NCBI GenBank assembly: GCA_019057775.1
Contig: JAHLWT010000307.1
Coordinates: 77,826-141,825, forward strand
Source of the DNA: Promethearchaeota archaeon
Lineage (GTDB): Archaea; Asgardarchaeota; Lokiarchaeia; Sigynarchaeales; SOKP01
Direction: 5' to 3'
DNA length: 64,000 nt
Shown: piece after piece, positions 39,823 through 41,109 of the stretch
Position numbering within the stretch: position 1 is the first letter of the stretch
How the letters are laid out: each line of letters begins with the position of its first letter
Made by a program: the position numbers and the translations under genes
Notes under the pieces: generated by a model
Told to the model about the DNA's origin: nothing
The model's database searches: none
Seen by the model: only the letters and a program-made list of their open reading frames with translations

Positions 39823-41109
39823 ATGTCGAGAAAAAAGATCAAAAATATTTTTAAGATATGTGTTGTAGGAGATGAAGGTATAGGTAAGGAAAAATTTATA
39901 GAACTTTTTGCCAAACGGTTTTATGTTAAAAAAGTCGATACTGCTTTAACTTACGGTGTTACTTTTTATTGGGAATCAATATCAGTGAATGCTGAGATTG
40001 GAGTCCAAGAATATAGAATTCAAATTTGGAATTTTATAGGGAGTGACCGTTTTAAGTTTCTGCATAAATCTTATATGTTTGGAGCTAAAGCATTTATGAT
40101 TTTTTTTGATTTGGGTAATCGGGACACATTTGAACATTTAAATGATTGGTTGAGTGAAGTAAGAGAACATATCAAAAAAGATCCCAATAAGAAGGTTCCA
40201 ATTTTAATTGTTGGAAACAAAAGCGAAATGAAAAATTTTGCTGTTTCACCAAAAGATATTGATAATTTAATCACAAAAAATGAAGTATATTATATAGAAA
40301 CGTCTACTGCAACAAAAGAAGGGATTTTCGACAGTTTTTATTGTATTACTAGTTTAATACTTGGAGTAGAGATCGATAATGAATATTTTATGTCTAGAGA
40401 TAATATTTACCGCCAAAAATTAAGCCCTATTGAGAAAATTCCAACAGATTCAACACTTACTCCGCAGGATCTAAGTAATCTAAGTCAACAAGCAATATTT
40501 CAGAAATTAAATTTACTTGAAAAGAAAATAGATGATATTAAAATTCAAGACACAAAAATAGCAAAAGACATTGAATTAAGGGAAAAAGAATTGAAACTCA
40601 AAGAGAGAGAGTTAGCTTTAATGGAAGAGGAAATGATAAAAGGTACAGAAGTTAAACAATTACCAGAGATTAAGGAGAGCTTACAAGTTTTTGTTAGTTA
40701 TGTTTCTAAAGATGGGGAATTATTCAAAGTTAAAGAAATCGCTAAATCACTTACAAATTATAAGAAAATTGAAAGAGTTCTGTTCTATGAGGACGAGTCG
40801 TACGATAATTTTATTAAATTTATGAATGATAATCTCGGAAAATGTGATGTTTTACTCCTATTTTGTTCTCCAAATGCTTTAAACTCAGAATTTGTTGTTA
40901 AAGAGTGGACAGCAGCGGATGCAAATAAAATCCCTATCATTCCTATTTTTGTTAAATTAGACCATATTCCTCCACTTTTAAAGTCAAGGTTAGGTGTTGA
41001 ATTCGATACTTTTGATCTTCAAAAGACCATCGATGAAATTTACATCGTAATTTTGAAAAAAGTGGAGAAACGATTAATAGATATAAGAGACTTAAAAACA
41101 GATTTTTAG
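39823..41109 (+). CDS. degenerate Rab-like GTPase fused through a coiled coil to a TIR domain
   Basis: 428 residues. Residues 10-175 have a Rab/Ras layout, but the nucleotide motifs are altered: P-loop GDEGIGKE (Glu for Ser/Thr), G3 WNFIGSDRF (Asn for Asp, Ser for Gln), G4 NKSEM (Glu for Asp), G5 ETSTA. Residues 210-285 form a charged coiled coil (ELREKELKLKERELALMEEE). Residues 287-420 are a TIR domain: LQVFVSYVSKDGELF, VLFYEDE, CDVLLLFCSPNALNSEFVVKEW, IIPIFVKL; the Glu before Trp (about residue 360) sits where TIR NADases have their catalytic Glu. ATG 39823 is preferred to GTG 39799. A nucleotide-insensitive sensor with an NAD-cleaving or assembly output is inferred. Confidence 0.88.
   Translation: MSRKKIKNIFKICVVGDEGIGKEKFIELFAKRFYVKKVDTALTYGVTFYWESISVNAEIGVQEYRIQIWNFIGSDRFKFLHKSYMFGAKAFMIFFDLGNRDTFEHLNDWLSEVREHIKKDPNKKVPILIVGNKSEMKNFAVSPKDIDNLITKNEVYYIETSTATKEGIFDSFYCITSLILGVEIDNEYFMSRDNIYRQKLSPIEKIPTDSTLTPQDLSNLSQQAIFQKLNLLEKKIDDIKIQDTKIAKDIELREKELKLKERELALMEEEMIKGTEVKQLPEIKESLQVFVSYVSKDGELFKVKEIAKSLTNYKKIERVLFYEDESYDNFIKFMNDNLGKCDVLLLFCSPNALNSEFVVKEWTAADANKIPIIPIFVKLDHIPPLLKSRLGVEFDTFDLQKTIDEIYIVILKKVEKRLIDIRDLKTDF

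Follow-up and report, generated by a model that had tools for sequence, protein, structure and literature searches.

Among archaea, the Asgard group is the nearest known to eukaryotes, and it carries many Rab-like GTPases, most of them without a known role. Here we describe, in a 64,000-nucleotide stretch of a Promethearchaeota archaeon (contig JAHLWT010000307.1; the window), a gene that joins a degenerate Rab-like domain, hereafter the pseudo-Rab, to a TIR domain. Both component kinds are already known. PseudoGTPases have been defined and classed, and some of them, such as Rnd and RGK, bind nucleotide (PubMed Central (PMC) article PMC5593906). Ras-like AP-GTPases and Roco proteins occur in conflict systems (PMC7159879, PMC8195603), and enzymatic TIRs self-associate and require a glutamate (PMC10022894). 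PMC10933270 treats Asgard GTPases that carry longin or roadblock parts, and a text search for TIR found no mention there. In the available sections of a survey of Asgard defence systems (PMC11291487) TIR appears twice, inside system names, and a 2026 EMBO J review (PMC12993045) contains no whole-word TIR, small GTPase, GTPase, immun or Rab. No description of a pseudo-Rab-TIR fusion was found among the papers listed by searches of the open-licence PMC literature, and on that basis the pairing of a pseudoGTPase with a TIR looks new.

An earlier note on this DNA, made from its letters alone, had read the gene as a degenerate Rab-like GTPase followed by a coiled coil and a TIR domain, and this layout is borne out. 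Pfam finds Ras at residues 11-179 (E 5.6e-28) and TIR_2, above its cut-off, at residues 289-395 (E 1.3e-13). The G domain is predicted to have a Rab fold. The C-terminal part was modelled separately, as the Rab domain takes up the VIA list obtained with the full-length model, and its predicted fold is that of a TIR. Between the two domains the structure model places a single long helix, at low confidence (predicted local distance difference test about 51-74 in blocks), the start of which (LTPQDLSNLSQ.AIF.K) is also present in alignments of membrane-anchored relatives. The open reading frame (ORF) ends at 41109 and may start at 39799 (GTG) or 39823 (ATG); the ATG is favoured because the starts of homologues align with it. 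The features are as follows.

39823..41109, + strand: pseudo-Rab, coiled coil and TIR gene, 428 amino acids (ORF; Pfam Ras and TIR_2; same layout in 12 further proteins)
39844..40362, + strand: Rab-like G domain, residues 8-180
39868..39891, + strand: G1/P-loop GDEGIGKE, residues 16-23, with Glu23 at the Rab Ser/Thr position (motif tables)
40027..40047, + strand: G3 WNFIGSD, residues 69-75, Asp to Asn and Gln to Ser (motif tables)
40213..40227, + strand: G4 GNKSE, residues 131-135, Asp to Glu (motif tables)
40297..40308, + strand: G5 ETST, residues 159-162, Ser retained (motif tables)
40462..40641, + strand: long helix spanning residues 214-273, probably a coiled coil (low-confidence model; alignments)
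40681..41088, + strand: TIR domain, residues 287-422
40903..40908, + strand: Glu361-Trp362, predicted catalytic Glu and its neighbour (129 of 129 related TIR segments)
41071..41106, + strand: C-terminal tail RLIDIRDLKTDF, common to a subset of related TIRs (alignments)

A homologue search over 5.8 billion proteins gave 309 matches. Among the best 120 of them, at least 12 other proteins share the layout of the window protein at 52-59% identity (P0002-P0013; P0011 is partial according to its source), two of them labelled Hermodarchaeota and Hodarchaeota, and a fusion fragment (P0014) is also present. Since the domains and the linker recur in 12 other proteins, the fusion is not due to chance, and the same recurrence rules out an assembly artefact. 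A second search with the membrane-anchored relatives (alignment A3) gave 49 matches in total, which suggests that the pseudo-Rab clade is of limited size, with clear bounds, within the reach of that search. The pseudo-Rab-TIR fusion is a real and conserved but rare family.

In fold and sequence the G domain resembles the eukaryotic and Asgard Rabs (Rab11, Ypt7) but is altered at the G1 Ser/Thr, the G3 Asp and Gln and the G4 Asp, and the protein carries a helix and a TIR where Rabs have C-terminal cysteines. Compared with pseudoGTPases such as p190RhoGAP pG1/pG2, CENP-M, Rnd and RGK, it is Rab-type and archaeal, keeps the P-loop Lys and is fused to a TIR. With Roco and AP-GTPase conflict proteins it shares a Ras-like domain in conflict-type architectures that also use TIR, and Pfam Roc matches it; unlike Roco, its G domain is Rab-like and degenerate, and assignment to Roco was rejected, as the Pfam hits include no COR and the long helix follows instead. 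The TIR fold is common to SPARTA TIR-APAZ, SARM1, plant TIR-NLRs and AbTir, and the Glu361 helix is presumably equivalent to the helix bearing their catalytic Glu. Identity of the window TIR to RUN1, SARM1, AbTir and SPARTA is 15-21%. Unlike SPARTA, SARM1 and TIR-NLRs, the window protein lacks APAZ, ARM, SAM and NB-ARC, its sensor part being the pseudo-Rab, and a TIR-NLR or STAND identity was rejected in the absence of NB-ARC or NACHT Pfam matches up to E 1. The conserved Glu is shared with Thoeris ThsB. Thoeris itself was rejected: ThsB_TIR scores 13.9 bits (cut-off 21.2), ThcB4 17 of 220 bits, and PADLOC finds no Thoeris model among 14 neighbouring ORFs.

The reading we favour, tentatively and at somewhat less than even confidence, is that the Rab-derived pseudo-GTPase acts as a module for protein recognition and assembly instead of a GTP clock. 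The retained Rab surface, together with the strongly conserved last helix and its extension, would bind a partner or ligand, which in view of the Rab ancestry may be a protein linked to membranes or trafficking. In alignments the last G-domain strand, helix and extension (YIETST..KEGI.DSFYCITSLILGV..SEYFLSKD) are conserved in fusions and membrane-type proteins, and they are the likely contact surface. The 60-residue helix would pair two chains, pairing and clustering would bring the C-terminal TIRs together, and the clustered TIRs would cleave NAD+ (nicotinamide adenine dinucleotide) or a related nucleotide using Glu361, giving a signal or NAD depletion and, as the outcome, an accessory stress or antiviral response. 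This route is the most likely one because the helix should pair chains and because enzymatic TIRs self-associate and need the Glu (PMC10022894). Behind it stand the two predicted folds, the altered GTP motifs, the conserved layout, the invariant Glu-Trp and the exchange of output domains; we infer loss of nucleotide cycling, dimerisation, NADase activity and an immune purpose. Several points weigh against this reading. The P-loop Thr is kept in five of 13 fusions (P0006, P0007, P0010-P0012), and P0006 departs from the Rab consensus at two positions only (switch-I Thr and G3 Gln); some members may therefore still bind nucleotide. PADLOC finds no defence island among 14 of the ORFs between 28 and 52 kb, with two CARF-type matches only. 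The interpretation in the earlier note thus stands in part: the two domains, the degenerate GTP site, the TIR Glu and the Asgard relatives support it, while the P-loop Thr rows, the missing defence island and presence in one of 227 genomes qualify it.

At the GTP site, the window protein has GDEGIGKE, NFIGS and NKSE in place of GxxxxGK[S/T], DxxGQ and NKxD, which changes four of ten Rab consensus positions: the Mg2+-ligand Ser/Thr, the G3 Asp, the G3 Gln and the G4 Asp. The motif tables agree with each substitution that the earlier note had listed; its statement that all nucleotide motifs are altered was too strong, for the consensus residue still stands at the P-loop Lys, the switch-I Thr, the G3 Gly, the G4 Asn-Lys and the G5 Ser. 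All 40 pseudo-Rab clade rows scored differ from the consensus at two or more of the ten positions (2-5 in the 13 TIR fusions, 4-5 in four longin-like rows, 4 in the nitrilase row, at least 4 in 22 membrane-type rows); normal Asgard Rab domains joined to a TIR (P0029, P0033, P0071) show no departure. No TIR-less clade member with normal motifs appeared, all 27 examined having at least four departures. The residue after the P-loop Lys (Arg in P0008) is Asp in 25, Glu in 17, Thr in 5, Gln in 1 and Gly in 1 of the 49 clade rows with a readable P-loop (P0014, P0128 and P0129, in which the region is absent, are excluded), hence acidic in 42 of 49. All five Thr rows are TIR fusions without the switch-I Thr. 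Judged by fold and motifs, the name pseudo-GTPase suits the window protein and the scored clade, and suits less well the five fusions with a P-loop Thr, P0006 above all. Because the Mg2+ ligand and the base-specificity Asp are lost, the window G domain, judged on its motifs, probably does not cycle.

A less likely alternative is that the G domain has kept its hold on guanine nucleotide, perhaps with very tight or Mg2+-free binding, and remains a switch or sits in an Rnd-like locked state, with TIR output following the nucleotide state. The P-loop Lys in 12 of 13 fusions and the G3 Gly, G4 Asn and G5 Ser in all 13 fit such binding, as do the Thr retained in five fusions, the existence of normal Rab-TIR fusions and the precedent of Rnd and RGK (PMC5593906). 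It is harder to square with the joint loss of the Mg2+ Ser/Thr, G3 Asp and Gln and G4 Asp in the window protein, with the missing switch-I Thr of the five Thr rows, and with the membrane-hairpin relatives, where the G3 Gly is gone from 17 of 22 rows and no row keeps a whole NKxD.

The clade exchanges what follows its G domain: the window-type TIR (13 rows), a different TIR (P0131, 24% identical to the window TIR over 99 residues, E 0.12), a longin-like part (P0025, P0026, P0028, P0031, P0130; so judged from the sequence, which gives no Pfam match in that part), two hydrophobic helices (10 of 10 membrane-type rows examined) or a nitrilase (P0027). The G domains of P0003, with a TIR, and P0026, with a longin-like part, are 94.9% identical over 217 residues, and the two proteins are 20.9% identical past the junction; P0025, P0028 and P0031, whose clusters hold 8, 7 and 8 member sequences, repeat this pattern against P0003 at 87-89%. 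With G domains near identical and outputs unlike, an exchange must have taken place recently if no contig here is a chimera. Among 31 membrane-type pseudo-Rabs, 20 share their contig size with exactly one other, which gives ten putative pairs (P0036/P0091, with adjacent locus numbers, P0038/P0044, P0040/P0126, P0039/P0045, P0042/P0057, P0049/P0124, P0096/P0127, P0060/P0125, P0037/P0046, P0128/P0129) and 11 stand alone, including P0123 on a 151 kb contig. In all eight pairs with both members in the tree, one lies inside a 13-row subclade (100/99) and the other outside. Going by the equal contig sizes, membrane-type proteins seem to be encoded in pairs, possibly as a heterodimer of two degenerate Rabs. 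A profile scan of 227 genomes of the phylum, scoring up to ten candidates per genome, found none of them at E 1e-60.

In a tree of 43 clade rows and six other Asgard Rab domains the pseudo-Rab clade has support of 100/100, and each of its four main branches contains TIR fusions. The membrane-type rows group together (100/100), as do the P-loop-Thr rows (97/88); the window protein groups, not firmly, with the nitrilase row next to the membrane-type clade (90/76, 85/82), and rows without the P-loop Thr lie on one side of a weakly supported branch (74/71). A single origin was rejected both for the TIR-fused members taken together and for the TIR-less ones (single-clade trees, p 1.6e-49 and 1.0e-16, for groups named after the first tree). 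Nearest to the clade among the relatives examined are the roadblock-Rab proteins P0132 and P0133. On the simplest reading a Rab of the roadblock-Rab type would have gained a TIR, its P-loop Ser/Thr would then have become acidic, and some lines would have replaced the TIR by other outputs.

The TIR was compared in 129 distinct segments (E 1e-15 or less to the window TIR, at least 110 residues) from fetched proteins and loci. The Glu that the earlier note had placed at the catalytic position is Glu361, in model helix 356-367; it is predicted to be catalytic, and on sequence the active site of the TIR looks intact. Glu361, Trp362 and Asp297 are present in 129 of 129 segments and Tyr293 in 128 of 128. 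As segments were chosen by likeness to the window TIR, this invariance is conservation inside one TIR family; no segment lacks the Glu in its sequence. A search of PDB sequences with TIR pieces only (A6), made after mixed alignments A4 and A5 had returned Rabs because some rows carry Rab domains, matched a TPR-TIR (9m0n, 6.9e-6, Glu aligned) and a SEFIR (5y8e, 2.5e-5, Glu not aligned). PADLOC bSEFIR models match 7 of 31 TIR pieces and TIR-NLR models 3; the window TIR matches neither. The window-type TIR is also joined to LRR, WD40, TPR, PCI/winged-helix-like, SPFH and ubiquitin-like parts, and in L023 to an nSTAND at a weak match below cut-off. Five Asgard proteins pair it, as the window protein does, with a Rab-like domain, but with a long middle region or in reversed order and with a Rab outside the pseudo-Rab clade: P0029, P0033 and P0071 have a normal Rab, and in L057 (GKS) and P0080 (degenerate) the TIR comes first. 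A label test is compatible with one origin of these couplings outside the clade. The NLR-like reuse of one TIR with LRR, WD40 and TPR favours the eukaryote-like immune layout proposed in the earlier note; the lack of a defence island among the 14 ORFs and the rarity of the fusion (1 of 227) do not.

Such reuse also bears on the rather doubtful idea that the TIR is a scaffold and not an enzyme, a homotypic plug joining Rab, LRR, WD40, TPR and ubiquitin-like sensors in one assembly, with the fusion as an adaptor like the MyD88 and MAL TIRs. Copies across architectures are mostly 50-70% identical to the window TIR (52-70% in 40 proteins, 34-66% in 30 pieces), as a shared interface would need, and TIR fold matches include MAL, MyD88 and TRR-2. 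A scaffold, however, would not need the Glu, and Glu361 and Trp362 are invariant.

Several proteins with the window-type TIR deserve mention in themselves. P0051 and P0058 fuse it to a ubiquitin-like domain. One Asgard contig (L027:6079-15351) holds four genes with it inside 10 kb, and both of those scanned carry LRRs. L018:4731-8393 and similar ORFs (L015, L016, L017, L020, L022) encode 1,180-1,228 amino acids with the TIR at the C-terminus; WD40 propellers precede it in L018, the one scanned of the six. L025:858-2624, from an Anoxychlamydiales bacterium, is a TIR-LRR protein whose Asgard-type TIR is 54% identical, a clue to possible gene transfer linking chlamydiae with Asgard archaea.

An alignment-based scan of the contigs of 84,980 species genomes, by two peptide patterns, found 31 loci, 30 in Asgard archaea and one in Anoxychlamydiales (L025), with the full fusion at one of the 31; with the window protein as sole query the scan found nothing. 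Other Asgard genomes do carry the fusion, as the Hermodarchaeota and Hodarchaeota proteins above show, and among 227 genomes of the phylum it is in G001 alone (isolate YT_039, Lokiarchaeota; E 2e-138). In any other genome the best match is TIR only (2.5e-54), and 26 of the 227 reach 1e-35 or better; up to seven candidates were scored per genome, the full fusion being expected first, and the counts take no account of genome completeness. The nearest species by MetF among the genomes compared are G131, G120 and G126 (93%, full length), G127 (95%) and G130 (94%), the latter two partial. None of the five has a fusion match at 1e-35 or a pseudo-Rab profile match at 1e-60. The gene order 41176-41517, 42111-42380, MTHFR-C and MetF is conserved in G131, G120 and G126, and past the 41176 gene no fusion, SMP-30 or SDR occurs in 9.2 kb (G131), 3.4 kb (G126) or the 0.4 kb fetched for G120. 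As the order is kept up to the 41176 gene and the fusion is absent beyond, the fusion borders a conserved block, the position expected of an accessory gene.

The defence-island location considered in the earlier note was not found among the 14 ORFs scanned. At 47404-49302 there is a partial match to the PADLOC CARF/LolE-type membrane model (E 6.1e-26), probably covering the membrane part only. A housekeeping regulator of signalling or membrane trafficking, unconnected with immunity, would suit the metabolic character of the Pfam-named neighbours, descent near P0132 and P0133 and the membrane hairpins and longin-like parts of relatives; its sporadic presence, the lack of a match in near relatives and the exchange of outputs speak against this role, which we consider improbable. 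The favoured sensor reading and the scaffold, nucleotide-locked and housekeeping alternatives need not exclude one another at each step. A relic in decay, with a dying GTPase fused by chance, would account for the motif changes and the rarity and is very improbable: simple decay was rejected on the layout conserved in 12 others, with invariant positions outside the GTP site, and on the acidic swap common to 42 of 49 rows.

Elsewhere in the window, a ThiC-like gene (20348-21965) is split by an in-frame TAA at 20837-20839 followed by ORFs at 20846-21622 and 21552-21965, being either a broken gene or a sequencing error, and a serpin (22082-23242; Pfam E 1.6e-114) adjoins an M28 peptidase (23298-24482).

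A wider reading, which we put forward with much reserve, is that in Asgard archaea a Rab became a non-cycling immune-type sensor. The Asp or Glu that stands where the P-loop normally has its Mg2+ ligand would replace metal and phosphate chemistry and lock the domain, and recognition would pass to exchangeable outputs (an NAD-cleaving TIR, membrane hairpin pairs, longin-like parts, a nitrilase); the fusion would be one receptor of an Asgard TIR network that includes LRR, WD40, TPR and ubiquitin-like sensors. At 428 residues the protein is compact and testable: it has a single predicted catalytic Glu, and its natural relatives include forms that keep the P-loop Thr and forms that lack it. The fusion may represent a trafficking protein turned into a sensor of immune type, and a disabled Rab tied to a TIR would connect trafficking-type GTPases with immune-type output outside eukaryotes.
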